From the NCBI RefSeq assembly GCF_000260715.1, contig NC_017834.1:186001-250000 (forward strand): a stretch of DNA of 64,000 bases, written 5' to 3'. Below the pieces are notes generated by a model. It ran no database searches, had not been told where the DNA came from, and was given only the letters and a program-made list of their open reading frames with translations. This DNA comes from Bifidobacterium animalis subsp. animalis ATCC 25527 (GTDB taxonomy: Bacteria > Actinomycetota > Actinomycetes > Actinomycetales > Bifidobacteriaceae). A program made the position numbers and the translations under genes. Below are positions 6,102 to 61,720 of the stretch, one piece after another. Numbering within the stretch: position 1 is the stretch's first letter; the number at the start of each line of letters is the position of its first letter.

Positions 6102-6155
6102 TTTGCGGTGTGCGAACGCGATGTGCAACGGATGCCTGCTAGAGTCGGAAATATT

Positions 6156-7700: not shown

Positions 7701-7711
7701 CACACGGCTGA

Positions 7712-11722: not shown

Positions 11723-11773
11723 GGACGCCGTGCGCAGCTCCAGAATCCGCGCATCATCTGTTTGAGAAAAAAG

Positions 11774-11786
11774 CTTACGGTGTAAG
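11774..11786. promoter_or_regulatory. MarR operator, exporter copy
   Basis: The perfect palindrome CTTACGGTGTAAG lies directly against the ribosome site (AAGGAAAA) of the first exporter gene. Binding here could block both transcription and ribosome access. It shares the core TTACGGTGTAA with the site in front of the marR gene. Confidence 0.6.
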
Positions 11787-11793
11787 GAAAAAT

Positions 11794-13713
11794 ATGATAC
11801 GAATCATGAAATATCTCTCCAAAACGGAGATAGGGCAGCTGGTGTTGTCGCTGGTCACCATTGTGGGCCAGGTGTACTTCGACCTCGAACTGCCAAGCTA
11901 TATGTCACAGATCACGCGGCTCGTGGAGACGCCGGGCAGCCAGATGCGCGACATCTGGATCGCCGGCGGCAAGATGCTGCTCGTCTCGCTCGGCTCGCTC
12001 GCATGCGCGGTGGTCACCGGCTACTTCGCCGCGCGCGTGGCCGCCTCGTTCGGCCAGCGTCTGCGCTCGCTCGAGTTCCGCAAGGTGGAGTCGTTCGGGC
12101 CGTCCGAAATGCACCGCTTCTCCACGGCGAGCCTGATCACGCGTTCGACGAACGACATCACGCAGATTCAGATGTTCATCACGATGGGCTTGCAGATGCT
12201 CATCAAGGCGCCGATCATGGCCGTGTGGGCCGTGTGCAAGATCGCCGGCGAAGGCTTCGAATGGACGCTCGCCACCGGCATCGCCGTGGCGATCCTCATC
12301 ATCTCGATCGCCGTGCTCATGGTGCTCGTCATGCCGAAGTTCAAGGCAATGCAGCAGCTCACCGACGACATCAATCTGGTGACGCGCGAGAATCTGACCG
12401 GCATGCGCGTCGTGCGCGCCTACAATGCCCAGGACTACCAGGAAGGCAAGTTCGAGCGGGCGAACAGCAATCTGACGAACACACAGCTGTTCACGAACCG
12501 CGCGATGTCGGTGATGATGCCGCTCATGGGCACGATCATGAACGGGCTGTCGCTCGCGATCTACTGGATCGGCGCCTACCTGATCCAGGACGCCGGCCTG
12601 ACCGACAAACTCACGCTGTTCTCGAACATGGTCGTGTTCTCCAGCTACGCCATGCAGGTGGTGATGAGCTTCCTGCTCATGAGCATGGTGTTCGTGCTGT
12701 GGCCGCGCGCCGACGTCTCCGCACACCGCGTGCTCGAAGTGCTCGACACCGACCCGCTCGTCAAGTCCGGCACCGCCAAGCGTGGGCTCACGGTGCAGGA
12801 GGCCAAGCAGCGCGGAATCATCACGCCAGCGGAACGTGCGCGATATGCCGACGACCTCGAGCTCGCCGGCGAGATCGAATTCCGCGACGTGAGCTTCACC
12901 TACCCCGATTCACGCGAGGCGATGCTCGAACACATCAGTTTCACGGCGAACAGGGGAGACACGGTGGCGATCATCGGCTCCACCGGTTCGGGCAAGTCGT
13001 CGCTCATCAATCTCGTGCCGCGCTTCTACGATGCGACGGACGGCGAGGTGCTCGTGGACGGCATGAATGTGCGCGAATACGACTTGAAGACATTGCGCGA
13101 CAAGATCGGCTACGTGCCGCAGCGCTCCTTCCTGTTCAAAGGCACCGTCGAATCGAATGTGAGCTATGGCGACCGGCCCGACGAACCCGAAAACGTGCCG
13201 ATGATCGACGTCTCGCGCATGAGCGGCCGCAAGGCGGAACGGGAGTTCCTCAAGGCCGACGAGGCGCGCGAGCTCACCGCGCAGGAGGCGAACCGCGTGC
13301 GCGAGGCGAGCGACGTCGCACAGGCCACCGAATTCGTAAGCAAGATGCCGAAAGGCTTCCAGTCGCCGATCGCCCAGGGTGGCACGAATGTGTCGGGCGG
13401 CCAGAAACAGCGCCTGTCGATTGCGCGCGCCGTGTACCGCGACCCGGAGATTCTGATCTTCGACGACTCGTTCTCGGCACTCGACTTCAAAACCGACCGC
13501 GAGGTGCGCGACGCGTTGAAGGAGACGGCGAAGGATGCGACGAAGCTCATCGTGGCGCAGCGCGTCGGCACGATCATGGACGCGGACTGCATTCTCGTGC
13601 TCGAGGACGGCAAGGTGGTGGGTCAAGGCACGCACCGCGAACTGCTCGAGACCTGCGAGGTGTACCAGGAGATCGCGAAATCGCAGCTGAGCGAGGAGGA
13701 GCTCAGTGCGTGA
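11794..13713 (+). CDS. ABC exporter half-transporter with degenerate catalytic site
   Basis: The 639-residue protein has an N-terminal ABC exporter membrane domain of six helices (about 15-320) and a C-terminal ATPase with Walker A GSTGSGKSS and signature VSGGQKQRLSIARA. Walker B is ILIFDDSFSALD: the catalytic glutamate is replaced by aspartate, as in the non-catalytic partner of heterodimeric exporters such as BmrCD, LmrCD and TmrAB. An extra acidic segment of about 60 residues lies between the Q-loop and the signature. The next gene encodes the canonical partner. The role is probably multidrug or lipid-related export, with substrate unknown, under MarR control. Confidence 0.92.
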   Translation: MIRIMKYLSKTEIGQLVLSLVTIVGQVYFDLELPSYMSQITRLVETPGSQMRDIWIAGGKMLLVSLGSLACAVVTGYFAARVAASFGQRLRSLEFRKVESFGPSEMHRFSTASLITRSTNDITQIQMFITMGLQMLIKAPIMAVWAVCKIAGEGFEWTLATGIAVAILIISIAVLMVLVMPKFKAMQQLTDDINLVTRENLTGMRVVRAYNAQDYQEGKFERANSNLTNTQLFTNRAMSVMMPLMGTIMNGLSLAIYWIGAYLIQDAGLTDKLTLFSNMVVFSSYAMQVVMSFLLMSMVFVLWPRADVSAHRVLEVLDTDPLVKSGTAKRGLTVQEAKQRGIITPAERARYADDLELAGEIEFRDVSFTYPDSREAMLEHISFTANRGDTVAIIGSTGSGKSSLINLVPRFYDATDGEVLVDGMNVREYDLKTLRDKIGYVPQRSFLFKGTVESNVSYGDRPDEPENVPMIDVSRMSGRKAEREFLKADEARELTAQEANRVREASDVAQATEFVSKMPKGFQSPIAQGGTNVSGGQKQRLSIARAVYRDPEILIFDDSFSALDFKTDREVRDALKETAKDATKLIVAQRVGTIMDADCILVLEDGKVVGQGTHRELLETCEVYQEIAKSQLSEEELSA

Positions 13714-13772
13714 GTGGGGCGTCGCATGCCGTATGCACATGTATGGGTTTGAGATAGATAGGATGTGAGGAT

Positions 13773-15620
13773 ATGCCAGGACCAATGGGACATGGGCGTG
13801 CAGGCGCGCCCGTGGAGAAAGCCGATGATTTCGGCGGCGCGCTCAAGGAGCTGATGCGCTTCAGCAAACGGTACATTCCGGCGATCGTCATCGCGCTGAT
13901 CCTCGGCGTCGGCGGTGCGATCTGCCAGATCATAGGGCCGGACTACCTCGGCGATATGACCGACGAGATCACCAAGGGACTGCCCGCGCTCGTGCACGGC
14001 AAGCCGGTGCTGCGTTCGATCGACATGGCCGCGGTGGCGCACATCGGGTGGACGCTCGTGGCGCTCTACGTGGGCTACGCACTGCTTTCGTACGTGCAGA
14101 GCTGGATGATGGCCACCGTCACGCAGCGCACGGCGCAACGCCTGCGCGCGGCCATCGACGTGAAGATGAACAAGCTGCCGCTCAAATACTTCGACGAGCA
14201 CAGCACCGGCGACGTGATGAGTCGCATCACGAACGACGTGGACGCCGTGGGGCAGACGCTCGGGCAGTCCCTCGGCACGCTCATCTCGTCGATCACGCTG
14301 TTCGTGGGCTCGCTCGTCATGATGTTCGCGAACAACTGGATCCTGGCATTGTGCGCAGTGGGCGCGAGCCTGCTCGGCATGGTGCTCATGCTCGTCGTGA
14401 TGAAGTTCTCGCAGAAGTACTTCGTCAAGCAGCAGATGGCACTCGGCGACGTGAACGGCCATGTGGAGGAGATGTACAGCGGGCACACCGTGGTCAAGGC
14501 CTTCGGCGGCGAGGCCGACGCGATCCGCAGATTCGAACGCTACAACAACGACCTGTACGAATCGGGTTGGAAGAGCCAGTTCATCTCGGGGCTCATGATG
14601 CCGATGATGAACCTCGTGGGCAACCTCGGCTACGTGGTCGTGTGCGTGGTCGGCGCGGCGCTCGCGATGAACGGCACCATCGAATTCGGTGTGATCGTGG
14701 CGTTCATGCTCTACATTCGCCTGTTCACGCAGCCGCTCTCGCAGTTTGCGCAGGCGTTCCAGAATCTGCAACGCTGCGCCGCGGGCTCCGAACGTGTGTT
14801 CACCTTCCTCAACGAGCCCGAGCTCGCCGACGAGTCCGACAAGCAACCGCTGCTCGGCTACGGCAGCAACGGCGAGATCACGCCCGTCGAAGGGCGCGTG
14901 AGCTTCGAGCACGTGAAATTCGGGTATGAGCCGAACAAGCTCGTCATCCATGATTTCTCGGCGGACGTGGAGCCTGGGCAGAAAGTGGCGATCGTGGGGC
15001 CCACCGGCGCGGGCAAGACGACGATGGTGAATCTGCTCATGCGATTCTACGAGATCGCCGGCGGGAAGATCTCGATCGACGGCATCGACACGAAGAGCGT
15101 GCCGCGGTGGAACGTGCACGACCAGTTCTCGATGGTGCTGCAGGACACCTGGGTGTTCAACGGCACCGTGCGCGAGAATGTGGCGTATGCGAAGGAAGAC
15201 GTGACCGACGAGCAGGTGGTCGCCGCCTGCCGTGCCGTGGGACTCGACCGTTACATTCGCTCGCTGCCAAACGGCTACGACACCGTGCTCGACGAGTCGG
15301 CCACGCTGTCGCAGGGGCAGAAGCAGCTGCTCACCATCGCGCGCGCCATGGTGCAGGATTCGCCGATCCTCATTCTCGACGAGGCGACAAGCTCGGTCGA
15401 TACGCGCACTGAGGAGCTCATCCAGGCGGCGATGGACAAGCTCACCGAGGGGCGCACCTCGTTCGTCATCGCACACCGGCTCTCCACGATCCGCGACGCC
15501 GACATGATCCTCGTCATGCGCGACGGCGACATCGTGGAGCGCGGCACGCACGACGAGCTTCTGGCACGCAACGGCTTCTATGCCGACATCTACAACGCGC
15601 AGTTCACACTCGCGCAGTAG
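13773..15620 (+). CDS. ABC exporter half-transporter with canonical catalytic site
   Basis: The 615-residue partner of the preceding gene has a six-helix exporter domain (about 30-350). Its ATPase has Walker A GPTGAGKTT, the variant signature LSQGQKQLLTIARA and Walker B ILILDEATSSVD with the catalytic glutamate present. The glutamine in place of the second glycine in the LSGGQ motif is common in the paired subunit of heterodimeric exporters. A GAGG precedes the ATG at 13773, and 59 bases separate the two genes, so they are one operon. Its end converges on the deacetylase gene with only 18 bases between. Confidence 0.92.
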   Translation: MPGPMGHGRAGAPVEKADDFGGALKELMRFSKRYIPAIVIALILGVGGAICQIIGPDYLGDMTDEITKGLPALVHGKPVLRSIDMAAVAHIGWTLVALYVGYALLSYVQSWMMATVTQRTAQRLRAAIDVKMNKLPLKYFDEHSTGDVMSRITNDVDAVGQTLGQSLGTLISSITLFVGSLVMMFANNWILALCAVGASLLGMVLMLVVMKFSQKYFVKQQMALGDVNGHVEEMYSGHTVVKAFGGEADAIRRFERYNNDLYESGWKSQFISGLMMPMMNLVGNLGYVVVCVVGAALAMNGTIEFGVIVAFMLYIRLFTQPLSQFAQAFQNLQRCAAGSERVFTFLNEPELADESDKQPLLGYGSNGEITPVEGRVSFEHVKFGYEPNKLVIHDFSADVEPGQKVAIVGPTGAGKTTMVNLLMRFYEIAGGKISIDGIDTKSVPRWNVHDQFSMVLQDTWVFNGTVRENVAYAKEDVTDEQVVAACRAVGLDRYIRSLPNGYDTVLDESATLSQGQKQLLTIARAMVQDSPILILDEATSSVDTRTEELIQAAMDKLTEGRTSFVIAHRLSTIRDADMILVMRDGDIVERGTHDELLARNGFYADIYNAQFTLAQ

Positions 15621-33014: not shown

Positions 33015-33120
33015 CTCTGCGATTCGCCTCTGCGTAATTTGGGACATTTGCATCATGCTTTCTGTCCCTTTTTACGCAGGAGGGGGCTGCGTGGTGTTTT
33101 CTGTCCCTTCTTACGCAGAC
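33015..33120. repeat. Dispersed palindromic repeat, family F copy 1
   Basis: CTGCGTAATTTGGGACATTT (33029 on) faces CTGTCCCTTTTTACGCAG (33062-33079) as a long hairpin. A second 3' arm, CTGTCCCTTCTTACGCAG, lies at 33101-33118. The copy sits between two convergent genes and close to the 3' end of the one at 33175. Other copies are at 44.2, 48.5 and 61.6 kb. Confidence 0.7.
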
Positions 33121-34042: not shown

Positions 34043-34081
34043 GTGCCCCCCCAGGGATTCGAACCCTGAACCCACGACTTA
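34043..34081. repeat. attL: duplicated 3' half of tRNA-Lys
   Basis: This 39-base copy is identical to 42398-42436 and contains the T-arm GGATTCGAACC (reverse strand of the tRNA). It is a tRNA fragment, not a gene: the sequence to the right departs from the tRNA. The stretch 33883-34042 to its left is chromosomal flank with no gene seen. Confidence 0.9.
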
Positions 34082-34236
34082 TAATCTTCTGTTTATCACC
34101 AGCTATCACGATATGACTGAATGCTTGAAATTGTCGGCGTGTCGCTTGTTTTGTTTTATCGGAATATAGCGCCCTATAGCGCCGATTCACGACCCAACCA
34201 CGACCCAATGCAGGAGGGCGACGCGACACGCCGAAG

Positions 34237-34302
34237 TGTGAAATTTTAAAACTTCGCGCTATTATCGCTTTATCGATAAATGTGCTAAATAAAAATTTCA
34301 CA
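34237..34302. promoter_or_regulatory. Operator-like region ahead of the AlpA-type gene
   Basis: TGTGAAATTTT (34237-34247) and AAAATTTCACA (34292-34302) are perfect 11-base inverted repeats. Between them lies a second inverted pair, TTATCG...CGATAA (34263-34278). The AT-rich stretch ends at the ribosome site of the first element gene. It looks like the control region of the element's rightward operon. Confidence 0.5.
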
Positions 34303-34315
34303 GAAAGGGGAGGTC

Positions 34316-34507
34316 ATGAAAACCATAGGCATCCAAGAACTAGCCAATATCACCGGACTATCAGTGCGCAGCATTTACCGGCGCAGGACATACATGAAGG
34401 AGACGCTGCCTCCGGCAGTAAAGGTTGGTGGCCGACTTCGTTGGGATGTTGACACGGTGAACGCATGGATGAGCGCACATGAAGAAGAACAGGAGGAGCA
34501 AAAATGA
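34316..34507 (+). CDS. AlpA-like helix-turn-helix regulator / excisionase
   Basis: The 63-residue protein is a MerR/AlpA-type winged helix: IGIQELANITGLSVRSIYRR followed by LPPAVKVGGRLRWDVDTVNAWM. This is the typical small DNA-binding protein at the start of satellites and prophages, acting as excisionase or transcription activator. AGGGGAGG precedes the ATG. The next gene overlaps its stop by ATGA. Confidence 0.85.
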   Translation: MKTIGIQELANITGLSVRSIYRRRTYMKETLPPAVKVGGRLRWDVDTVNAWMSAHEEEQEEQK

Positions 34508-34860
34508 TTCACCAACTCAAATTAGTGCTGTCTGTTCTCGCGAATCAGCTCAGCGCTGCCGTGGATGAAGTCAACGAAAACAATGTTGCTCCACTTGTGA
34601 CGATGCGCCAGATTACCGAATTAATGCGACTCGTGATGGGGGCGATCTTTCAGCTCAAGCGGGGCTCGGACAAGCCTGACGAGAATCGTCGTGTGCTGGA
34701 GAATCTGCTGGCGTCGCTCCGGCAAATTGCCGGGGACGAGCGGGTTGCGATGGATGGCCGGAACGCGGCGGTGGCGACACTTCAGTATCGAACGACCGCG
34801 TCCACGATCGCCCAGATCGAGGCCATAGCCGGTGCTCGTACGGGAAGCGGGGTGCGGTGA
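34504..34860 (+). CDS. Element protein of unknown function (118 aa)
   Basis: A helical, soluble protein with leucine-rich N-terminal segment (LKLVLSVLANQLSAAVDEV) and several Arg/Glu pairs; no family recognised. It overlaps the AlpA-like gene by four bases and the next gene by its stop, so it belongs to the same operon of the mobile element. Confidence 0.65.
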   Translation: MIHQLKLVLSVLANQLSAAVDEVNENNVAPLVTMRQITELMRLVMGAIFQLKRGSDKPDENRRVLENLLASLRQIAGDERVAMDGRNAAVATLQYRTTASTIAQIEAIAGARTGSGVR

Positions 34861-35045
34861 TGGGATTGATTTCACCTTCGCTGGCCCGTTCGCCGCTGGT
34901 GCGATTCAGTGATGCTGAGCTTGCGCGATGGGGCGATGGTTTGGTGAGGAACGCGGGGGGACAAGCAATAGAACCGCTAAGTGGCGGCAGGGTGCTTACT
35001 TCGGTGGAGATTGAGGAGGAGAGGAAGAGACATGCTGACAACTGA
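34860..35045 (+). CDS. Element protein of unknown function (61 aa)
   Basis: A short acidic protein ending in EIEEERKRHADN, translationally coupled to the gene before it: ATG 34860 overlaps the stop TGA, and a GTG at 34857 is an alternative start. It overlaps the DUF3631 gene by 14 bases. No family is recognised. Confidence 0.6.
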   Translation: MGLISPSLARSPLVRFSDAELARWGDGLVRNAGGQAIEPLSGGRVLTSVEIEEERKRHADN

Positions 35046-36219
35046 GCTTGACGCGGATGCGCTGCTGATTGAACGGCAGGATGCTCTTGCGGCTGTTGCT
35101 GCGATGCCCGATGATGGCGTGCTCAACGATACGAGGGCGTGGTTCGCACGGTTCATTGTGACGCGGAAGCCCTCTGACTTGGATGTGCTGTCGTTGTGGA
35201 CGCTGCACACGTACCTTCTGCAAGTGCTGCCGGTGTCGCCGCGACTCGTGGTTGATTCGATAATGCCAGGCTCCGGCAAGACCACAACATTAGAACACCT
35301 CGATCACCTATGTCACGCGCCGACACTGGCCAGTGCGTTCGGCTCGGCGGCGATGATTCCACGAATGATCGACGCTGCTGGAGATGCCTCACTCTCTCTG
35401 CTGATTGACGAAGTTGATAGGACGCTCGACCCATCAAAGGATGGCGTGGGCGATCTGCTCGCCGTGATCAATTCAGGCTACAAGCCGGGCGCGACCCGAC
35501 CTGTGCTCGTGCCGGACAAGAAAGAGGGGTGGAAGGCGGCGCCGATGGACACGTACGCCGCAATCGCGATGGCTGGCAACAGTCCCAAGCTACCGGATGA
35601 CACGAAGTCGCGTTCAATCCCAATCTTCCTTTTGCCGGACATCGACGGTAGCGCCGACGAGACGGATTGGGTGAGCGATGACACGTTGGCAAAGCAGGCG
35701 GCGGCATTGCATGCGAAGCTGGAGGCGTGGGCGACCATTCATGCTGAGCAGGTGCAGGCCACGAGGCCGGTGCTCCCCACCCGATGCCGGAACAGGGCGA
35801 AGGAAAGGTGGGTCAGCTTCGCCAAGATCGCCGCCGTCGCCGGTGGACAATGGCCCGACAAGGTCAACGATCTGATCGAAGCCGACCTTGACCGCGAGGA
35901 AGCCGAACGAGCGGATGGTATCAACGGATTGCCGCAAACGGTGAAGTTGCTCCGTGATCTTGTGACAGTTTTCGGTGAACGCGAGTCCATGCCGACAACG
36001 GAAATTGTTGCAAAGCTGGCGGCTTACAACTCAGAGGAGTGGGGCCTTGCCAGTCCATACGGGAAGCCAATCACAAGGCAACGGTTGGCGAAGATGATGT
36101 CCCCACTTGGAATTCATTCGGTTCGAAGTTATGACAACGGTGCCAAAACACCACGTTCGTACTTGCGTGCCGATATTGCCAAGGTTGCTGATTCCCTACA
36201 CCTCCCCACCCTTACCTGA
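35032..36219 (+). CDS. DUF3631 P-loop protein, probable replication/helicase-like
   Basis: The 395-residue protein has a P-loop MPGSGKTTTLEHL at about 80-92, an acidic Walker-B-like segment LSLLIDEVDRTLD, and the DUF3631 core with AAIAMAGNSPKLPDDTKSRS (a sensor-like asparagine) and a C-terminal helical domain. DUF3631 proteins occur in actinobacterial prophages and plasmids, often fused to or beside primase or virulence-associated E-like helicases. A replication role is inferred. GAGGAGAGGAAGAG precedes the ATG at 35032. Its stop codon runs into four 9-bp iterons. Confidence 0.8.
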   Translation: MLTTELDADALLIERQDALAAVAAMPDDGVLNDTRAWFARFIVTRKPSDLDVLSLWTLHTYLLQVLPVSPRLVVDSIMPGSGKTTTLEHLDHLCHAPTLASAFGSAAMIPRMIDAAGDASLSLLIDEVDRTLDPSKDGVGDLLAVINSGYKPGATRPVLVPDKKEGWKAAPMDTYAAIAMAGNSPKLPDDTKSRSIPIFLLPDIDGSADETDWVSDDTLAKQAAALHAKLEAWATIHAEQVQATRPVLPTRCRNRAKERWVSFAKIAAVAGGQWPDKVNDLIEADLDREEAERADGINGLPQTVKLLRDLVTVFGERESMPTTEIVAKLAAYNSEEWGLASPYGKPITRQRLAKMMSPLGIHSVRSYDNGAKTPRSYLRADIAKVADSLHLPTLT

Positions 36220-36288
36220 CGTGGGTCACGTGGGTCACGTAGGTCACGTAGGGCGTGATTTTTGTTGGAAGGAAGCCAAAAATGAATC
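36219..36288 (+). repeat. 9-bp iteron array with conserved flank, left copy
   Basis: Four units in a row: ACGTGGGTC, ACGTGGGTC, ACGTAGGTC and ACGTAGGGC (36219-36254), then GTTGGAAGGAAGCC and AAAA. The same order and flank occur inverted at 40246-40315. It could be a replication or packaging site, or a recombination site; its function is not shown. Confidence 0.8.
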
Positions 36289-36494
36289 GGTCGGGGGTAA
36301 CAATATCAGTCGCGCATGTACTTGACAAGAACAACAAAGTGCTGTGCGGCAAGCAGGTCGTGGGCGGTGTTCGCACCTCTCGCCAGAACATCGAAACGGA
36401 AACCGGATGGGTGTCATGCCCGCTCTGCGAGCTTGCAGCCGAATGCGCACGCATCGACGCCGTGAGCGGATGGCAGCAGGGGACGTTGTTATGA
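36282..36494 (+). CDS. Small element protein with CxxC motif
   Basis: The 70-residue protein has CPLCELAAEC near the C-terminus plus an earlier cysteine, so it may bind a metal ion. GGAAGGA precedes the ATG at 36282. This ribosome site lies inside the duplicated flank of the iteron array. No family is recognised. Confidence 0.55.
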   Translation: MNRSGVTISVAHVLDKNNKVLCGKQVVGGVRTSRQNIETETGWVSCPLCELAAECARIDAVSGWQQGTLL

Positions 36495-36569
36495 GAGGAG
36501 GCCCATAGAAACACAGCTGACACACCCCGAAGAATCAAGAGAATACAGAATAGCAGAAGGATAATGACG

Positions 36570-37103
36570 ATGAATAACAATACCATGACCAAATTCGAGC
36601 AGCAGACGGCGAACGCGCTACGCCTCATTGGAACAAATCTGGGCTGCTTAACGACCGCTGTGAGCCGACTGGAACCGAAGGAACCAGGCAACGACAACAA
36701 CATGGCCCGTATCGCGGACGCGCTGGAACAGCTCGTAGAAGTAGCGGAGGCGTGCAGGTTGAACCATGTGGAAAGCCTCACGTGTGGCGAGCTGATGGAG
36801 GGCGTCACGTTCAGCACGGAAGCGCAGCACGAGGATGTTGGCGACGGTGAGACACTGCACAGCTTCGTGCGGCTCGCTCTCGATGACATGGGCCTCGGAT
36901 TCGATGTGCGCGCGATCAACGACGAGCATGCAGAATGCTACGGCGACGCGACAGGCGAATGGAGCTTCCAATCACCCGACGAGTTGCACGCGCTTGCGGA
37001 TGCGTTCCGCACACGGTACGCGGCAGCGATTGACATGGTGGCGTCCGAGTGGGCCAAGCGCATCGCGGACGGAACCATACCGGCACGGGAGGCCGTGGCC
37101 TGA
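36570..37103 (+). CDS. Element protein of unknown function (177 aa)
   Basis: An acidic soluble protein (for instance EDVGDGETLHSFVRLALDDM) with predicted helices and no recognised domain. AGAAGG lies nine bases before ATG 36570 and three before ATG 36564, so the first is preferred. Its stop overlaps the next start by ATGA-type coupling, showing one operon toward the capsid gene. Confidence 0.65.
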   Translation: MNNNTMTKFEQQTANALRLIGTNLGCLTTAVSRLEPKEPGNDNNMARIADALEQLVEVAEACRLNHVESLTCGELMEGVTFSTEAQHEDVGDGETLHSFVRLALDDMGLGFDVRAINDEHAECYGDATGEWSFQSPDELHALADAFRTRYAAAIDMVASEWAKRIADGTIPAREAVA

Positions 37104-37276
37104 TGTGGGATCACGTGGACGGTATGAGCGCACACCACGGGCGGGCAGGTTGGAGGTTCACCATCAATGGCGAGCGGGTGAGCGAGGGGCTGTGGAAACG
37201 CCGTTATATTGCCGCCCTCGAAGCCGAGAACGAAGCCCTGCACGAGAAGCTCGCCAAGATCTTTGAACTGCTGTGA
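37103..37276 (+). CDS. Small element protein, unknown (57 aa)
   Basis: A 57-residue protein whose ATG overlaps the stop of the gene before it. The N-terminal half has GWRFTINGERVSEGLWKRRY; the C-terminal half is a short coiled-coil helix (ALEAENEALHEKLAKIFELL). It is unrecognised and lies in the structural-gene operon. Confidence 0.55.
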   Translation: MWDHVDGMSAHHGRAGWRFTINGERVSEGLWKRRYIAALEAENEALHEKLAKIFELL

Positions 37277-37290
37277 AAGGAGTGCCACAC

Positions 37291-37602
37291 ATGGATATGC
37301 AAACCATGTTGCGCCAGATGAACATCTTCGGCGGCAGTGACGCGCACAGTCGGCTTGCGGCCCAGCAAGAGCTGGAAACTCTGCAGCAATTGGCCCGGTT
37401 TGTACCCCTCGCCGCCGACACCACACGGGCCGAGCGACTGTTCGAGTTCACAGTGCGGAAGCGTTTGCAGGCGTGGCAGCGCGCAGGCGAGGCCGAACAC
37501 TTCTATGTGTCTGACCGGGCGCGTGCCCGGGTGGACGCGGAAATCCTGGACACAATCGAAAACAACAGCAGAGAGGAAGAAGATGAACGACCACACCAAT
37601 GA
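37291..37602 (+). CDS. Element protein, unknown (103 aa), before scaffold gene
   Basis: A helical protein (MDMQTMLRQMNIFGG...LQQLARFVPLAA) ending in an acidic tail. AAAGGAG lies nine bases before the ATG at 37291; a second ATG at 37297 is possible. It overlaps the scaffold-like gene by 20 bases. Position next to capsid genes suggests a morphogenesis or packaging role, but no family is recognised. Confidence 0.6.
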   Translation: MDMQTMLRQMNIFGGSDAHSRLAAQQELETLQQLARFVPLAADTTRAERLFEFTVRKRLQAWQRAGEAEHFYVSDRARARVDAEILDTIENNSREEEDERPHQ

Positions 37603-38230
37603 GCAACCCACATCGGATAACAACGACCACGAAGGCCGTCTGACGGCGGAGAACGCGAAAAGGCGAATCGCCGCGAAGGAAGCGCAGGCCCGCGCGGACG
37701 CCGCCGAAGCCGAAGCCGAGAGCTTGAGGCAGCAGATAGCAGAGCTTCGCTTGTCTCAGGCACGGCAGCAGGTGACGGCCAATCACCCGGAGTTGACCGC
37801 CGAACTGATTGAGAAGTATGCGCCGGAGGGCGTAGACGCGGACGGGCTGGCAGACTGGGCCGAGAAGTCGTTGGGGCTTGTTGTCGCGCTTCGCGGTGAA
37901 CCGGAACCGGACAGCGGAGCCATGAGCGACGCAGAACGCGAACTGGCTGCGGCGCGCCTCGACCTCGCAATACAACAGGCCGTAACGGAGCATGAGCATG
38001 TGACGGTGGACGTGCTCGATGCGCTGTGCGGAGCGGACACGCCGGAAGGCGTTGCTGAATGGGCGGCGACGTTCGAGCAGGTTGCTTCGGCCCTCGCGGC
38101 CAAGTCTGCGGAGCCTACTCAGTTGCAGCTCATCATGCAGGGTGTGCGCGCGAACAAGGTCGGCGGCGGCAAGATGAAGCGTCCTGGCAGCGGCATGGAG
38201 GGTGTGGCTCAGAAGCTAGTTAATCGTTGA
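37583..38230 (+). CDS. Probable phage capsid scaffolding protein
   Basis: The 215-residue protein has a charged coiled coil at about 20-62 (KRRIAAKEAQARADAAEAEA) followed by a helical acidic region and a basic glycine-rich C-terminus (NKVGGGKMKRPGSGMEG). A coiled-coil, acidic protein encoded just ahead of an HK97-type capsid gene is the usual profile of a scaffold. No protease catalytic motif is evident, so it does not look like a prohead protease. AGAGGAAG precedes the ATG. Confidence 0.7.
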   Translation: MNDHTNEQPTSDNNDHEGRLTAENAKRRIAAKEAQARADAAEAEAESLRQQIAELRLSQARQQVTANHPELTAELIEKYAPEGVDADGLADWAEKSLGLVVALRGEPEPDSGAMSDAERELAAARLDLAIQQAVTEHEHVTVDVLDALCGADTPEGVAEWAATFEQVASALAAKSAEPTQLQLIMQGVRANKVGGGKMKRPGSGMEGVAQKLVNR

Positions 38231-38255
38231 AATCAAGCCGATTTCATGGTATAAT
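38227..38255 (+). promoter_or_regulatory. Strong sigma-70-type promoter for the capsid gene
   Basis: TTGAAA (38227-38232) and a perfect TATAAT (38250-38255) are separated by exactly 17 bases. The -35 box overlaps the stop codon of the scaffold-like gene. Transcription would begin near 38262, within the capsid leader. Confidence 0.75.
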
Positions 38256-38290
38256 CGGAGGAGTGAACAGGGTTCACGACCCGTAACGCA

Positions 38291-38341
38291 GGGCGTGCGG
38301 TGCATTCATTAATTGATGGTGCCGCACGCCCCGTTTTCGTT
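38291..38341 (+). terminator. Terminator or attenuator hairpin in the capsid leader
   Basis: GGGCGTGCGG (38291-38300) pairs perfectly with CCGCACGCCC (38322-38331), then CGTTTTCGTTT. It stands between the capsid promoter and the capsid start codon, so it would both end the scaffold operon transcript and attenuate the capsid's own transcript. Confidence 0.7.
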
Positions 38342-38379
38342 TCTACCGGGCTGCGCGGCAGAGACGAAAGGACATATAC

Positions 38380-39246
38380 ATGGCGGTTTTCAAGACAACA
38401 ACAACCAAGGGGGCATTCCCTGATGCGCAATTCATCGCAGCTCGCGAGGCCATTCCCGAGGCCATCGCACTCAACCCACTTGTGGCAACACAGTCGGTTG
38501 TAATCAGTGGCGACGCGCCTAGGGTTAATGTGCCCTACGTGTCGGTAGATCCCACGGCAAACGTCGTGGCCGAGGGGGCGGAGATAGCCACGAGCAACCC
38601 GGCGTTGAACCAAATCAGCTTCGGCACCCACAAGATTGCGCTTCTCGTACCGTTCTCGAACGAGAGCCTCCGCTACGAGGATGCCGTGACGCTTATCACC
38701 GATTCGGCGCAGAAGGCGCTCGTGGCGCAGGCCGACCATCTGTTCCTTGCGGCGGACGCTGATACGAACGGCGTGCTTCCCACTGGTATCGCGAAGATTC
38801 CGGCGGCGACGGAAGACACGAGCGGGGTGACCGAGGTTACGGCCGCGAGCAAGGCGAAGACCCTCGATGCGGTTCTCGACGTGCTGGCGGCCGTCACCGA
38901 CAAAGGGGCCACGCCCACGGCTATCGTCATGCGTTTTTCGACGTGGGCAACCCTCATGGCGCTCACCGCTACAGACGGGCGTCCGCTTATCGAGCCCGAT
39001 GTGACGGCTTCCGCGTCGCCCATGCTGTTCAACGTCCCCGTCCTGTTCAACAGCCAAGTCCCCGCGAACACCATCCTCACGATGTCCGCGCCCGATGTGA
39101 TTGTGAGCGTTTCGGATATTGCCGCAGATACTGATTCTTCTGCGATGTTCACCAGCGATTCCTCGTTGTTGCGCATGACGTTGCGCCTCGGGTTTGGTGT
39201 CGCGAATCCTGGACGTCTTGGTCGCGTGATCGTCCCGACGAAGTGA
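38380..39246 (+). CDS. HK97-type phage major capsid protein
   Basis: The 288-residue protein resembles short actinophage HK97-fold capsid proteins. An N-terminal arm of about 30 residues is followed by VNVPYVSVDPTANVVAEGAE (E-loop region), HKIALLVPFSNESL (P-domain), a long helix (DAVLDVLAAVTDKGA) and LRLGFGVANPGRLGRV near the end. It lacks the long N-terminal delta domain, fitting a separate scaffold. AAAGGA lies eight bases before the ATG. It is the last structural gene of the element: no portal, terminase or tail gene follows. Confidence 0.88.
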   Translation: MAVFKTTTTKGAFPDAQFIAAREAIPEAIALNPLVATQSVVISGDAPRVNVPYVSVDPTANVVAEGAEIATSNPALNQISFGTHKIALLVPFSNESLRYEDAVTLITDSAQKALVAQADHLFLAADADTNGVLPTGIAKIPAATEDTSGVTEVTAASKAKTLDAVLDVLAAVTDKGATPTAIVMRFSTWATLMALTATDGRPLIEPDVTASASPMLFNVPVLFNSQVPANTILTMSAPDVIVSVSDIAADTDSSAMFTSDSSLLRMTLRLGFGVANPGRLGRVIVPTK

Positions 39247-40085
39247 CGGCTGCATAGCTGCTGATGGGCCTCGCTGATATGGTGGGGCCCTTTTTCATGC
39301 CCATCGAAGGTGTTGTAAAAACGTCGTAACACCTACTGCCGCTTGTGTTTTCGGGAACATGTCACGCCTCTTCCAAATAGTCTCAGAACGCATTCGGGGC
39401 CGGAACCAGAACCGCATGCGGCCAAATCGTTTTTGTGGGGGGCACCCCTCCCCGCCCCTATATCCTCTCAGGCTTTCGTCTCCGGCTCGTTTTGACTGTT
39501 TGTGTGGGTTACTCGTGTGCGCATGTTGCTCGCGTTAGAGGGGCGTTTATGTGCGTTACAGAGGGTATGTTGTTGTGTGAGGGTGTAGCGTGCGGTGTCG
39601 CGGCGCGACTGGGATTGGGACTGCCGACAACTTTAGTAATTGTAAAGTTGATGCTTGGTAGGTGTGGGGTGGTGGTCTACCACCTCATGCGTGTGTGTCG
39701 TATCAGACACTATGTCTGAAGTGTCGTAAGTGTCTTAAATAACTTGGGAACACTTGGAATCATTGGCTTTTGGAATCAGACACTTTTGCTGTGTAAGTGT
39801 CTGAAGTGTCGTATCCGCTGGATTGCAGGTGGGTTCATGGCATGGTATCCAGATGGGTGTCTGATTGAGCTGGCGGACGCTGCTGTGGGTGCTCGTGGTT
39901 CACGACCACCTTGCAGCATAGGTGCAGTCCTGCTTCGGGATTCCCGCATGATCTGCAATCACTGCATCGCACTGCATACACCGCACGCCGCTACATACAC
40001 CACTGCACCACACATCACCCACCACTGCACGTCTGCTGCATCGTATTCCTTATGCCTGTGTTGTGCTGTTGCCCAGGTGGTGTGC

Positions 40086-40183
40086 GGCTGGAAATCGTTG
40101 CGGTTACGCCGGTTACACTTTTACTTTCTTTGGTTACGCTGGAAATCGTTGCGGTTACGCCGGTTACGCCGGTTACGCCTTTT
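40086..40183. repeat. Direct repeats with CGGTTACGC iterons
   Basis: GCTGGAAATCGTTGCGG begins at 40087 and again at 40138, 51 bases apart. Each is followed by CGGTTACGC-type 9-base units: one and a half in the first copy, three in the second. Iterons of this form are common at replication origins of small elements, which is inference here. Confidence 0.6.
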
Positions 40184-40245
40184 CAGGGTATGGGTGTGGG
40201 GGCGTCTTTGGCTATGGTGTGTCGCCAGCATGTTTGTTGAGTGTG

Positions 40246-40315
40246 TGGGGCGTTTTCGGCTTCCTTCCAACGTTTCCGTGCTCTATGTGACCTACGTGAC
40301 CCATGTGACCCACGT
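40246..40315 (-). repeat. 9-bp iteron array with conserved flank, right inverted copy
   Basis: On the minus strand from 40315: ACGTGGGTC, ACATGGGTC, ACGTAGGTC and ACATAGAGC, then GTTGGAAGGAAGCC and GAAAA. Order and flank match the array at 36219-36288 in inverse orientation, about 4 kb away. Confidence 0.8.
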
Positions 40316-40361
40316 CATATATGGGTGGCGGTAGTTAAAAGGTCGGCATACTCTAGAGTGC

Positions 40362-41120
40362 ATGACAGACCGCAAGAACGAACCTGTGCAGCTTCCAGAA
40401 CCGTGGGAAGATGTCCGTCTCTATGGAACTGAAAACCACAAGTTACATGCCGTAAACAGTGAATTTCGTGAGGTATTGGAATATATCGAGGACAAGAATC
40501 CCCCAAAACACCCCTTTGCTGTTGGCCGCATGGGCTTGTTTGAGTTTGCAAAACATGCCGAGTGGAAGCTAGTTCGAAACACGGCTAATGGCATGATTGT
40601 CGCCCTACTGCTTGGGACCACGTACAGTGGTCAACCTGATGGTATTGGGGTGAATTTCCGGCTTCTTGAAATGTTCATTGTGGCGCAACCGTATACAGAG
40701 GATATAAGTACCACTGATTTGCATGATTTCCCGCTGAAGGCAATCATATCTGCTTACCTGAAGGTCAGATGGTCGAGAGAGGTTGTAGTGAACCGCGGAA
40801 TGTTATTGAATTGCCCAAAGGAAGCGGGTATTCCGACACTGTATTGGAATGATGAAGATATTCCGCGAGCTTGTCCGCCAAAGAATATTCTCACGCCACT
40901 GCCGGTGGAGTATTCGAGACGTAACTGGTTCTATGCTCTTGTGGCTGAACAGTATGATGCGGTTGCCGAGAAATATCCGAATGCGAACGCTGCAAATAAG
41001 ATGGTTGAGATCAACAGTGATGTAGCACCGGGTAGCGTGCGCCGTTGGATTACGAAGGCACGGAAGATGGGCTTGCTTCTTCCGGCTGATTGGAAGCGTG
41101 GTGATAGTGATGCCGCGTGA
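40362..41120 (+). CDS. Unknown element protein with C-terminal HTH-like segment
   Basis: The 252-residue protein is encoded by visibly lower-GC sequence than its neighbours. Its C-terminal segment (about 205-245, YPNANAANKMVEINSDVAPGSVRRWITKARKMG) looks like a helix-turn-helix, suggesting a regulator; the N-terminal part is unrecognised. There is no ribosome site; TACTCT (40349-40354) lies seven bases before the ATG, which would suit a leaderless transcript. It overlaps the integrase start by 11 bases, so the two are probably co-expressed. Confidence 0.65.
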   Translation: MTDRKNEPVQLPEPWEDVRLYGTENHKLHAVNSEFREVLEYIEDKNPPKHPFAVGRMGLFEFAKHAEWKLVRNTANGMIVALLLGTTYSGQPDGIGVNFRLLEMFIVAQPYTEDISTTDLHDFPLKAIISAYLKVRWSREVVVNRGMLLNCPKEAGIPTLYWNDEDIPRACPPKNILTPLPVEYSRRNWFYALVAEQYDAVAEKYPNANAANKMVEINSDVAPGSVRRWITKARKMGLLLPADWKRGDSDAA

Positions 41121-42279
41121 GCGGATTCCGTTGGGTCAGCATGGTGATGTTTGGTTCGAGTCGGTTGGTGAGGGTTGGCGTGCTCTCTGCCAGTATCGGA
41201 CGCCTGATGGGAAGCTGAGGAAGCTCAAGCGGTCGGGCAAGTCGAAAGAGGCTGCGCGACGGAATCTGGAGCAGGCGTTCAGCACCTTGCCTCTGAATGC
41301 TGGCGGTGATGTTGATGGGCGTATGCAGCTGGACAGGCTGGCCGAATTGTATCTGGATGATGCCGCGCGTCGTGTGCGTCAATCGAGTCTCGCCCCATAC
41401 AGGTCGGCGGTCAAGACGATTGACGCCGGTTTGAGTGGGTTGCGCGTGTTCGAGGCCACTCCGATGGTGCTGCAACGGTTCATCGACAACGTGGTGGAGG
41501 AACATGGGCGCGGTGCAGCCAAAACATGTAAAAACGTGTTAAGCGGCATGTTCAAGCTGGCGGTTCGGAATGGCGCTATCATGCATAATCCGGTGGCGGA
41601 GCTGGACATGGTGAGGCGTTCCGATGATGATGAAGAACGGCAGGCGGATGCGATTCCTTTGGAGGGCTTGGAGGATGTGTTCCGGGCCATCTCAACCATT
41701 TCCGATTTGGTTAGAAACGATGAAGTAGATCTACTGCGATTCATGGTTGGCACCGGGTTGAGGGTGTCCGAGGCGTGTGGTCTGCTCTGGGATTGCGTGG
41801 ATTTTGACACTGGGCAGATTTCGGTTGAACGCCAGTCGAAGCGTGTTCCCGGTGAGGGTGTGCAGGTGGTTGATGATGTCAAGACGAGCGCGAGCCGGAG
41901 GCGTATCCATATTCCATCTGCGACGGTTGATTTGCTCAGGAGGCGGCATGAGGAGCAGGTGCGCGATGGTGGGGGCGGTGAGCATGATTTGGTGTTTCCG
42001 CTGCCGAATGGGAATGTCCGTGAGGCGAATCTGCTGAACAAGCATCTGCGGTTGAATCGTGATGCGCTTGGCTATCCTGAGTTGCGGTTCACGTCCCATT
42101 CGTTTCGGAAGACGTGTGCGAGCATCCTTGAGGCGCAGGGAGCGCCGCAGCTGGCCATACGTGACTATCTGGGGCATGAGGATGAACAGTTGACCGAGCG
42201 TGTCTATATTGCCCGTAATCTGCACACGGTGGAGACGGCGAGCACGTTGGACAAGTGGGGCGGTCTTGACTCGATATGA
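41110..42279 (+). CDS. Tyrosine-type site-specific integrase
   Basis: The 389-residue protein has an N-terminal arm-binding domain, a SAM-like core-binding domain (about 75-165) and a C-terminal catalytic domain. Catalytic residues are visible in order: Arg in GTGLRVSEACGL, His-x-x-Arg in TSHSFRKT, His in YLGHED and the nucleophile Tyr in ERVYI. It sits next to the intact tRNA-Lys, as expected for the enzyme that recombines attP with the tRNA's 3' half. The start at 41110 overlaps the preceding gene; a GTG at 41098 is also in frame. Confidence 0.93.
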   Translation: MPRERIPLGQHGDVWFESVGEGWRALCQYRTPDGKLRKLKRSGKSKEAARRNLEQAFSTLPLNAGGDVDGRMQLDRLAELYLDDAARRVRQSSLAPYRSAVKTIDAGLSGLRVFEATPMVLQRFIDNVVEEHGRGAAKTCKNVLSGMFKLAVRNGAIMHNPVAELDMVRRSDDDEERQADAIPLEGLEDVFRAISTISDLVRNDEVDLLRFMVGTGLRVSEACGLLWDCVDFDTGQISVERQSKRVPGEGVQVVDDVKTSASRRRIHIPSATVDLLRRRHEEQVRDGGGGEHDLVFPLPNGNVREANLLNKHLRLNRDALGYPELRFTSHSFRKTCASILEAQGAPQLAIRDYLGHEDEQLTERVYIARNLHTVETASTLDKWGGLDSI

Positions 42280-42351
42280 CCTTTTATCGCTGTTTCACGA
42301 CCATAACATGACCTTTTCCGGCACCGGAATGGCCTTGTGGTGGTAAGAAGT

Positions 42352-42394
42352 AAGGCTCTGAATCGTTGGTATTCCAATGGTTCAGAGCCTTTTC
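42352..42394 (+). terminator. Intrinsic terminator after the integrase
   Basis: AAGGCTCTGAA (42352-42362) pairs perfectly with TTCAGAGCCTT (42381-42391), followed by TTTC. It protects the convergent tRNA-Lys gene from integrase transcription. Confidence 0.85.
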
Positions 42395-42397
42395 ATT

Positions 42398-42436
42398 GTG
42401 CCCCCCCAGGGATTCGAACCCTGAACCCACGACTTA
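42398..42436. repeat. attR: tRNA-Lys 3' half
   Basis: The 39-base direct repeat identical to 34043-34081, within the intact tRNA gene. The identity block runs from the anticodon loop to one base past the tRNA's end, as is usual for tyrosine integrases. Confidence 0.9.
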
Positions 42437-42471
42437 AAAGGACGCTGCTCTAACCGTTGAGCTAGAGGGGC
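42399..42471 (-). tRNA. tRNA-Lys (UUU)
   Basis: The minus strand folds as a cloverleaf of 73 bases: acceptor GCCCCTC/GGGGGGC, D-arm GCTC-GAGC, anticodon loop CTTTTAA (anticodon UUU), T-arm CAGGG-TTCGAAT-CCCTG, discriminator A, no encoded CCA. The anticodon stem GCGTC/GTCGT carries one U-U mismatch. Its 3' half from the anticodon on comes from the integrated element (attR), which restores the gene. Confidence 0.93.
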
Positions 42472-42567: not shown

Positions 42568-44136
42568 ATGTCTTGCACAACGCTATTGGTAGGAAAATCA
42601 GCGAGTTACGACGGCTCCACGATCATCGCGCGCAACGATGACTCGGGCAGCGGCACCTACGACCCGAAGAAATTCGTGGCGGTGCGTCCCGAAGACCAGC
42701 CGCGGCACTACCGCAGTGTGATCAGCCACATGGAGATCGATCTGCCCGACGACCCGTGCCTGTACAGCATTGTGCCGAACGTGCGCCCGAATCGCGGCGT
42801 GCTCGCCGAAGCGGGCGTCAACGAATACAATGTGGCGATGAGCGCAACCGAGACCATCGCCGTGAATTCGCGCGTGCTCGCCGCCGATCCGCTCGTCAAG
42901 CTCGTGCCGGCGCACGGCGAACCCGGTGACGCTGACTATCGCGAGGAGGTGCCCGGCGGTTTCGGCGAGGAGGACATCATCACGCTCGTGCTGCCGTATG
43001 TGAGGACGGCGCGTGAGGCAGTCGCGCGCATCGGCGAGCTGCTCGCGACCTACGGCACCTATGAGTCGAACGGGATCATCGCCAGCGATGTGGATGAGAT
43101 CTGGTATGTGGAGACGATCGGCGGCCATCACTGGATTGCGCGCCGTGTGCCGGACGACTGCTACGCCGCCATTCCGAACCAGCTCGGTATAGATTTGCTC
43201 GACATCGACGACGCGATGAGCGAATGCCGCAACAATATGTGCAGCGCCGATCTGGCCGATTTCATCGAGGCGAACCATCTCGACCGCGCCATGCCCGACC
43301 CCGAGTTCGCAGACCACACCGCGCAGCATGTCAATCCGCGCACGGTGTTCGGCACGGCGACGCCGAAGGACGCGATCTATAACACCCCACGCGCCTGGTA
43401 CATGCAGCGGTATCTCAACCCGAGCGACGACTGGGATTCGTCGGCCGCGCAGTACCGCCCGGATTCGCAGGACATGCCGTGGGCGCGCGAGCCGGAGAGC
43501 AAAGTGACCATAGAGGACGTCGCGTTCCTGATGGGCTCGCATTTCCAAGGCACGCCGTTCGACCCGTACGGCACGACCGGCACGGCGGAATCCCGGCACC
43601 GCTACCGCCCGATCGGCGTGAACCGCACCGGGCAGATGGTCTGCATGCAGATTCGCCCGTATGCGGCCGCCGCCTACCGTTCGATCATGTGGATCTCATA
43701 CGGTTCCAGCGCGTTCACCACTCCCGCGCCGTTCTACGCGAATGTGACCGATACGCCGGCCTATCTACGCGACACCGACGGCGAAAATGCGTCGACGAAC
43801 TCGCTGTACTGGACGAACCGCATACTCGCGGTGATGGCCGACGCGCATTACTATGACACGGACGGCGAGATCGAACAGTACATCGAAGATGTGCAGGCGC
43901 ATGGCCACCGGCTTGTCGCGGACACCGACGCCTCGATCCGCGCCGATGCCGACGCGTTGGCGAGCGACTCCGCGCGCGAGGGGCTCAAGGCGGTGCGTCT
44001 GGAGTTGCAGACTGCAAACGAGGCGATGGCAGATTGGCTGCAGACGCGCACGCAGACGCTGCTCAATCAGGTGCTCTACACGACGAGCAATCTCATGCAC
44101 AACGCGTTCAAGATGAGTGACCACTGGATGAGCTGA
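42568..44136 (+). CDS. pepD: C69-family dipeptidase (PepD type)
   Basis: The 522-residue protein begins MSCTTLLVGKSASYDGSTII. The cysteine at position 3 would be the N-terminal nucleophile after processing, and RNDD follows, as in C69 dipeptidases that cleave a broad range of dipeptides. SNGIIASDVDEIWYVET and the SHFQGTPFDPYG region are family-typical. No ribosome site is present, but TAGTCT (42556-42561) six bases before the ATG fits a leaderless transcript. It is transcribed away from the tRNA-Lys gene. Confidence 0.9.
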   Translation: MSCTTLLVGKSASYDGSTIIARNDDSGSGTYDPKKFVAVRPEDQPRHYRSVISHMEIDLPDDPCLYSIVPNVRPNRGVLAEAGVNEYNVAMSATETIAVNSRVLAADPLVKLVPAHGEPGDADYREEVPGGFGEEDIITLVLPYVRTAREAVARIGELLATYGTYESNGIIASDVDEIWYVETIGGHHWIARRVPDDCYAAIPNQLGIDLLDIDDAMSECRNNMCSADLADFIEANHLDRAMPDPEFADHTAQHVNPRTVFGTATPKDAIYNTPRAWYMQRYLNPSDDWDSSAAQYRPDSQDMPWAREPESKVTIEDVAFLMGSHFQGTPFDPYGTTGTAESRHRYRPIGVNRTGQMVCMQIRPYAAAAYRSIMWISYGSSAFTTPAPFYANVTDTPAYLRDTDGENASTNSLYWTNRILAVMADAHYYDTDGEIEQYIEDVQAHGHRLVADTDASIRADADALASDSAREGLKAVRLELQTANEAMADWLQTRTQTLLNQVLYTTSNLMHNAFKMSDHWMS

Positions 44137-44153: not shown

Positions 44154-44236
44154 TTGCGTAATGGGCTCGGCCCGCTACGCAATTCCTCTGCATGAGTGCA
44201 GTCCTCTTAGTGCAGGCCTCTTAGTGCAGTCCTCTG
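44154..44236. repeat. Hairpin plus 14-bp triplicated repeat after pepD
   Basis: TTGCGTA (44154-44160) faces TACGCAA (44176-44182) around GGGCTCGGCCC, forming a GC hairpin that may end pepD transcription. Then AGTGCAGTCCTCTT is repeated three times with slight changes (44195-44236), running straight into the family F palindrome. Confidence 0.6.
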
Positions 44237-44284
44237 CGTAATTTGGGACATTTGCACGGTGTGTTCTGTCTCTTTTTACGCAGA
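44231..44284. repeat. Dispersed palindromic repeat, family F copy 2
   Basis: CTGCGTAATTTGGGACATTT at 44234 on faces CTGTCTCTTTTTACGCAG ending at 44284, a 50-base hairpin. Its right arm contains the stop codon of the TetR gene at 44276. Confidence 0.7.
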
Positions 44285-48489: not shown

Positions 48490-48680
48490 CCCTGCGTAAA
48501 TTATGTGGCTTCCCCTCCTCCTGCGTAATTGGGGACAGTTTCAGACTGCAATCTGTCCCTTTTTACGCAGGGGCTTGTACGCAGATCATTACCTTTTCCC
48601 TTTGCGTAATTTGGGACATTTTTGGAGCGCTATCTGTCTCTTTTTACGCAAGGTATCTTTACTTTTTACGTAAAAAGGGG
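48490..48680. repeat. Dispersed palindromic repeat, family F copy 3 (multiple units)
   Basis: CTGCGTAA arms begin at 48492 and 48531, with a TTGCGTAA arm at 48602; 3' arms CTGTCCCTTTTTACGCAG and CTGTCTCTTTTTACGCAA end near 48570 and 48651. A perfect 16-base palindrome CTTTTTACGTAAAAAG closes the cluster at 48662-48677. The stretch 48474-48731 holds no gene. Confidence 0.7.
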
Positions 48681-61552: not shown

Positions 61553-61720
61553 CGCTGCGTAAAAAGATTCCTCTGCGTAAAAAGCTGCCTTGTGCAAGAG
61601 CCGCACTGGCGTGAAAGCCTCCTTTGCGTAGAATGCGGCTTCCTCTGCGTAAACTTCCTCTGCGTAAAAAGGGACAGATTGGCGCTGGTAATGTCTCTTT
61701 TTACGCAGAGAGAAGGCGGT
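61553..61720. repeat. Dispersed palindromic repeat, family F copy 4 (multiple units)
   Basis: CTGCGTAA arms begin at 61555, 61573, 61645 and 61660, with TTGCGTAG at 61624. A full hairpin CTGCGTAAAAAGGGACAG (61660-61677) faces TGTCTCTTTTTACGCAG (to about 61710). The cluster fills the gap between the mutT1-like gene and the 3' end of ppk1. Confidence 0.7.

Follow-up and report, generated by a model that had tools for sequence, protein, structure and literature searches.

How an element of about 8 kb can hold the gene for a phage shell, with no recognisable gene for portal, terminase or tail, is the question raised by the locus described here. The DNA analysed (hereafter, the window) is a stretch of 64,000 nucleotides (nt) from the chromosome of Bifidobacterium animalis subsp. 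animalis ATCC 25527. A mobile element of about 8.4 kb (34043-42439) resides in it, flanked by 42-nt direct repeats (34043-34084 and 42398-42439) identical at 41 of 42 positions. The element is probably an intact phage satellite akin to phage-inducible chromosomal islands (PICIs), which encodes its own scaffold and HK97-fold capsid, and would borrow portal, large terminase and tail. Relatives of similar design and size reside in related bacteria, and the element is therefore probably a phage parasite provided with its own shell.

The element and its gene content

The left repeat (attL, 34043-34084) is a copy of the 3' end of tRNA-Lys, and the right one (attR, 42398-42439) lies within a tRNA-Lys(TTT) gene on the minus strand (42398-42471). 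An integrase and attachment (att) repeats at a specific tRNA site are features shared with PICIs in the broad sense. All called genes are on the plus strand, and their reading frames are open, none being broken, unlike what is expected of a decayed prophage. The G+C content of the element is 56.6%, versus 62.7% in the remainder of the window, and the source genome, a single contig of 1.93 Mb, has a single match to the element capsid. Genes were called, in the window and at all family and order loci, by the author's own script, not by an established gene caller.

The original prediction portrayed a co-oriented set of integrase, att repeats, AlpA-like gene, DUF3631 protein and HK97 capsid, and family matches and the nearly perfect repeat bear this out. 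The tyrosine integrase (41098-42279) matches Phage_integrase at 1e-20, the major capsid protein (38380-39246, 288 amino acids) Phage_capsid at 3.5e-26. The capsid aligns with the mature region of HK97 gp5 only, and has no delta domain. The P-loop NTPase (35032-36219; DUF3631, 2.5e-20) is a probable replication protein. A helix-turn-helix (HTH) protein of 63 amino acids (34316-34507) resembles excisionase-regulators of the HTH_17/AlpA type (HTH_17, 1.1e-6; PHROG excisionase, 3.3e-10), its Phage_AlpA match (0.012) being under the cut-off of that family. The predicted scaffold-like gene stands in part. Position, coiled coil and a profile match to scaffolds of relatives support the assignment for the 215-residue protein encoded at 37583-38230, but the protein alone matches no scaffold family, and hits only weakly (E 0.004-0.3) PHROG families of unknown, spanin, chemotaxis and minor-tail type. 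The match between the group of the window protein and the scaffold profile of relatives (P 93%, E 2.7e-7) must be taken with caution because the alignment spans the coiled-coil stretch; a scaffold profile found no match in PDB.

The other half of the question concerns what is missing. In keeping with the original prediction, terminase, portal and tail proteins give no significant match among the 12 window proteins scanned; connector and protease give none either. The sole such match below 0.001 links the 63-residue HTH protein to small-terminase phrog_57 (1.6e-4), and is weaker than the excisionase match of the same protein. No portal or large terminase family is matched in the window, where the largest protein without a family has 252 amino acids. 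Head protease, connectors and small terminase match no family either; small divergent proteins could escape these scans. Nothing in the window supports the alternative view, that a divergent terminase or connector hides among the small genes; a small-terminase homologue is nevertheless present in at least five relatives (L044, L046, L052, L101 and L106; loci are given L and genomes G numbers).

Relatives in the family and in the order

Capsid matches at E 1e-3 occur in 36 of 189 genomes of Bifidobacteriaceae, and 25 of these genomes reach 1e-26 or better. The neighbourhoods read are the window and 30 others from 28 genomes, including that of the window; eight genomes with weak matches (E 1e-4 to 1e-3; G001, G052, G090, G112, G122, G123, G153, G158) were left unread. 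The 31 capsid-bearing neighbourhoods correspond to 24 intact elements, four decayed copies and three full prophages (L058-L060). The intact elements, the one in the window included, are spread over five genera. All 24 carry the capsid and one replication-type NTPase larger than 340 amino acids, a slot held by different NTPase families; 23 carry an integrase, the single one lacking it (L046) being cut by the contig start, and a small HTH protein belonging to the clusters counted is found in 21. The size from repeat to repeat varies from 6923 to 9082 nt (mean 8145, standard deviation 562, n=22; none is given for L039 and L046). Boundaries are the longest repeats at the tRNA or at the outer ends; that of L032 derives from a 15-nt match, a 41-nt match of 88% being found as well, and L038 has no called tRNA.

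Among the insertion sites are genes for tRNA-Lys, Gly, Ala, Phe, Arg, Leu, Pro and Val, and relatives sit mostly at tRNA sites other than that of the window. In genome G075 the same tRNA-Lys is devoid of the element, has the same right-hand neighbour, and is found about 1.2 kb from a weak homologue (33% identity) of the left-hand one. In the L050 contig the element and its att site are followed by 426 nt repeating the element start, as in a circle or a tandem.

In the 24 intact elements the largest protein other than capsid, integrase and NTPase has 299 amino acids. Portals and large terminases normally exceed 350-400 amino acids, and a normal portal or large terminase therefore does not fit. 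Pfam and PHROG scans covered 134 of the 253 non-integrase, non-capsid proteins, that is, up to three per cluster plus singletons, each of at least 60 amino acids. Terminase, portal, connector and tail are all absent from the full list of 17 Pfam families matched, which comprises HTH types, AAA_25, KaiC-type ATPase, DUF3631, DUF3987, Prim-Pol, DnaB_C, Resolvase, HNH_3, Phage_scaffold and few others; head scaffolding is among the 25 of 87 PHROG families listed. A hidden portal or large terminase in the family elements is rejected on the basis of protein sizes and of the Pfam scan of these 134 proteins.

Capsids of the intact loci are constrained. The ratio of nonsynonymous to synonymous substitution rates (dN/dS) is 0.07-0.55 in seven pairs of intact capsid-only loci. 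The four decayed copies (L051, L055, L056 and L057) were excluded before counts and tree. Their capsids are broken and under weaker constraint, which makes them a useful yardstick; in six pairs of this set, dN/dS is 0.39-1.16, a range whose lower part coincides with the highest values of the intact pairs.

The distribution extends beyond the family. The capsid profile matches 52 of 396 genomes of the order at 1e-10, a count that takes in family members and some phage-like matches. Outside the family, 20 of the 21 best loci were read, and G352:C39 (L135) was examined for ends, integrase and capsid only. In 17 of the 20 loci, from nine further genera, the plan is similar and neither terminase nor portal was found; L092, cut by a contig end just before the scaffold, is unjudgeable. 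A search for the same gene block at other tRNA sites had been suggested in the original prediction, and it is mostly at such sites that the family elements and these similar ones lie. The Pfam scan concerned large proteins of 16 of the 20 loci, not every protein. Among the proteins scanned, those of L094, L104 and L109 gave no match, those of L105 weak HTH matches only. For the NTPase of L095 and L096 the assignment comes solely from clustering with L090 and L101, and L097 has no protein above 285 amino acids. Capsid-only order loci with repeats measure 7.5-10.6 kb (n=11). L097 is a contig of 9087 nt with identical 95-nt ends, scaffold and capsid, consistent with a free circle, in which a tyrosine integrase was not found. 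A serine-recombinase-like protein has been noticed by eye in L091, L099 and L100. No match was found in plasmids, nor in IMG/VR with the close patterns used; named genomes gave three loci, all of them in the genus Bifidobacterium.

Two order loci, L107 and L108 (10.5 and 9.9 kb), carry a portal and a large terminase (coordinates 5621-8498 and 11721-14464, respectively). Both portals match PF05133; the large terminase of L107 matches PF03354 and PF20441, that of L108 has been identified by clustering with it. No replication NTPase has been recognised in either locus, as in a few capsid-only loci (L094, L104, L105, L109). L107 and L108 are of similar size and have portal and terminase with no recognised NTPase, so that the two modules may substitute for each other. 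In a tree of 47 capsids, midpoint-rooted and accompanied by a program warning on long branches among the prophages, the 42 capsid-only capsids (L092 among them) fall on one side of a branch with support 98/97, and portal-bearing L107 and L108 with prophages L058-L060 on the other. Gene order, capsid tree and constraint make a decayed full prophage, the outcome against which the original prediction had been set, unlikely: the capsids of L058-L060 are distant (24-26% identity to the window capsid), their genes are in a different order, and they lie across the branch. The conservation envisaged in its place is found in intact elements of five genera, and the tRNA-Lys site of G075 is empty.

The capsid leader and the remaining features

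In the window, 149 nt separate the scaffold and capsid genes. This leader (38227-38379, plus strand) features a promoter-like site, TTGAAA-17-TATAAT (11/12), and two hairpins, one of about 13 pairs and, after a U-rich stretch, another near the ribosome site in front of the start codon; its fold z-score is -4.75. Taken together, the scans for promoters and terminators are not above chance (7 promoter-like sites vs 4.1 expected; 6 terminator-like vs 7.2). Spacers preceding the capsid gene at 44 loci, including L107 and L108, have a mean fold z of -4.4, and 39 of them are below -2; control spacers of the same loci have a mean z of -1.8, with 19 of 45 below -2 (p 2e-7 for the difference). Similarly, the median stem has 14 pairs before the capsid vs 11 in controls (p 4e-5). 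The best hairpins of the 24 family leaders range from 8 to 23 pairs, and have 24 different five-prime arms. At least five T residues are found within 12 nt after the hairpin in 15 of the 24, a count that has no control. The weakest leaders are those of L043 and L053. The three full prophages have just 10-14 nt in front of the capsid gene, and no such leader. No consensus fold emerged from a MAFFT alignment, which is not structure-aware, stems being different in sequence, and Rfam detected in the window only tRNA above the cut-off. The leader may act as an attenuator, or control capsid output at the ribosome site; alternatively, it could be a DNA packaging site. Folded and variable in sequence in the window and 43 related loci, it may represent a new cis-regulatory RNA.

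The remaining genes of the element are small. The original prediction counted six unknown proteins; four short genes are found in 36282-37602, two in 34504-35045, and one in 40362-41120, and neither the six short proteins nor the last one, of 252 amino acids, has a convincing family in Pfam and PHROG scans. The protein of 118 amino acids (34504-34860) has homologues in L032 and L033; profile comparison lent no support to its being a small terminase. The frame of 62 codons at 34857-35045 (plus strand) is absent from the author's gene calls, and is similar, by eye, to short genes of L031 and L032 and to the start of the L033 NTPase. A small protein with an LCG...CPLCE pattern recognised by eye (36282-36494) has relatives, grouped in two clusters, in 16 of the 24 family elements. 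The 179-residue protein (36564-37103) has a homologue in L033, the 57-residue one (37103-37276) belongs to a cluster of four members (window, L031, L032, L033), and a protein of 103 amino acids without family follows (37291-37602). The 252-residue protein (40362-41120) has homologues in L032, L037 and L053, where they adjoin the integrase, a position held by HTH regulators in other elements.

A terminator-like hairpin (39266-39290, plus strand) lies 3' of the capsid gene. Beyond it, about 1.1 kb (39291-40361) has no called gene, and hosts short repeats (39713-39813, 40087-40182) and the right arm of an inverted repeat; the region is a candidate origin and/or packaging site. The arms of the inverted repeat (36206-36282, which contains 9-nt tandem units, and 40253-40328) pair over 49 nt at 88% and 19 nt at 95%. 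They enclose the DNA from the LCG...CPLCE gene to beyond the capsid. In L031-L033, the three nearest elements, their motifs are not found again in the same form.

Outside the element, an intergenic repeat family, TGTCCC...TTACGCAG and its reverse complement, is found at 33027-33118, 44231-44260, 48521-48570 and 61570-61675. Further stretches of the genome, at 277683-278347 and 279782-280497 in contig coordinates, resemble at the DNA level the gene beside the tRNA (42568-44136); the query also contained the tRNA.

Possible helpers, rival explanations and known systems

According to the satellite hypothesis, a helper phage would trigger excision, and the NTPase would drive replication of the element. 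Scaffold and capsid would build shells around the portal of the helper, and the helper large terminase would load satellite DNA by means of a packaging site of the satellite or, in some relatives, of a satellite small terminase. Helper tails would finish the particle. The satellite would thus swap out the shell of the helper instead of reshaping it. The small-terminase homologues of L101 and L106 (7.5e-21 and 1.5e-16) belong to the family adjoining the large terminase in prophage L058 (5.5e-24), those of L044, L046 and L052 to a different one (1e-6 to 2e-5). L037 and L041 encode a primase-like protein that shares 63-66% identity with one from the full prophages L058/L059, and between the large terminases of L058 and Bifidobacterium phage Bbif-1 the identity is 88%. 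These links make phages of that sort plausible helpers.

Several observations weigh on the other side. The genome of the window has no PF05133 portal, no PF03354/PF20441 terminase and no terminase of the L058 type, and as none of the four kinds searched is there, no resident helper has been found. SPP1-type portals occur in 11 of 25 satellite genomes and in 47 of 164 others, a difference which is not significant (p 0.16), and in the 11 genomes having both no portal match was seen, by eye, on the contig of the satellite. No packaging site, small terminase or other redirection gene can be recognised in the window. The evidence for the scaffold is soft: among scaffold-position proteins of ten relatives, those of L034, L047 and L053 clearly match scaffolding families, and that of L037 weakly, but five match no scaffold family, and the L032 protein hits only a tail family (4e-4). 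Helper, excision, particle and transfer have not been observed.

Of the rival explanations, two assign a different role to the capsid. The protein could be a decoy, or redirect shell size, by assembling together with the helper capsid, no whole shell being built by the satellite. The precedent is Ccm of SaPIbov5, a satellite-encoded capsid homologue entering shells with helper capsid and portal (PMC8569155). This is unlikely: the elements carry a scaffold-like gene in addition, and, whereas Ccm is homologous to the capsid of its own helper, a tblastn search of 50,697 phage records (1e-3) matched neither the window capsid nor that of L045, and family prophages are as distant as reported above. 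A shell working as nanocompartment or defence device, and not in DNA transfer, is very improbable. The fold is common to encapsulins and phage capsids, but the capsid sequence profile points to the latter, matching phage capsids and one gene-transfer-agent capsid, and no encapsulin at E 1e-3; integration and replication genes, and the narrow spread of sizes, speak for a genome that is packaged.

The element could be a remnant of a capsid-forming PICI or prophage, immobile after the loss of portal and terminase. L107 and L108, which have both genes in about 10 kb, and the existence of decayed copies lend this idea some appeal. It is nonetheless improbable, as capsid-only capsids from 14 genera are found on one side of the tree branch, att repeats and genes are intact, and decayed copies differ from them by broken frames and by dN/dS values that only partly overlap. 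There is, finally, a slim chance that the element is packaged as a multimer into a larger shell. Phage-inducible chromosomal minimalist islands (PICMIs) are packaged as concatemers (PMC10803314), in helper-sized shells; PICMIs lack capsid-remodelling genes, however, and scaffold and capsid genes have been retained here.

A satellite with its own shell remains the favoured interpretation, and the size of that shell may be unusual. In the model relating genome length to triangulation number (T), as outlined in PMC7762592, about 8.1 kb correspond to T of about 2.33, 11.8 kb (8.1-17.1) to T=3, and 18.0 kb (13.2-24.5) to T=4; single units of 6.9-9.1 kb would therefore suit a shell below T=4. The same source finds it puzzling that tailed phages with T=1 or T=3 are lacking, and reports nine genomes of 7.3-8.5 kb, from gut metagenomes, in which capsid genes are present. 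Two reports argue against a small shell: satellite P4, of 11.6 kb, has a shell of T=4, which exceeds the prediction (PMC7762592), and PICIs average 9.5 kb, so that the size of the element alone is not unusual (PMC10803314). It may tentatively be proposed, with rather more reserve than for the element itself, that a class of actinobacterial satellites exists which builds, from its own scaffold and capsid, a sub-T=4 shell for a genome of about 8 kb, on which portal, motor and tail of the helper would be mounted, a folded leader setting capsid output. If so, these satellites would be candidates for the missing small capsids of tailed-phage type, and portal and shell could derive from unrelated lineages. 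Known satellites reshape the helper shell, fill it, or come with a whole head of their own, portal and motor included. With a satellite bringing the shell only, shell and portal vertex would be encoded by different genomes, and the rules of portal capture would become directly testable.

In searches of an open-access library, judged mostly on titles and the start of abstracts, no paper was recognised on a class of satellites with a shell and neither portal nor terminase. Capsid-forming PICIs, a comparison which includes the EcCI2 capsid 9gyi, encode portal, protease, connectors, both terminases and HNH (PMC10690885), none of which is recognised in the element, and average 14 kb (PMC10803314) vs 8.4 kb; the element shares with them a major capsid protein of its own, and has no recognised counterpart of their portal and large terminase. 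With SaPIbov5 it has in common a satellite-encoded protein of capsid fold and, plausibly, a portal supplied by the helper (PMC8569155). Ccm, as depicted there, is homologous to the helper capsid, has a delta domain, forms no capsids alone, and is accompanied by no satellite scaffold. MulchRoom and MiniFlayer are likewise actinobacterial satellites with small capsids and scaffold of their own, but their genomes include genes for portal, adapter and both terminases, with no primase known (PMC10690885).

The nearest published kin are the candidate PICIs of Mycobacterium, integrase-plus-capsid candidate satellites already listed in PMC10654092, phiRv1 and phiRv2 included. They are defined by integrase and capsid alone, and some have a terminase; the pertinent portion of that source claims no class free of portal and terminase, no narrow size and no capsid leader. 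Their tyrosine types are inserted at tRNA genes, their serine types elsewhere, and some have helicase and scaffold genes. The element, a phage-like region with integrase and major capsid gene, falls within that definition, and belongs to the same phylum.

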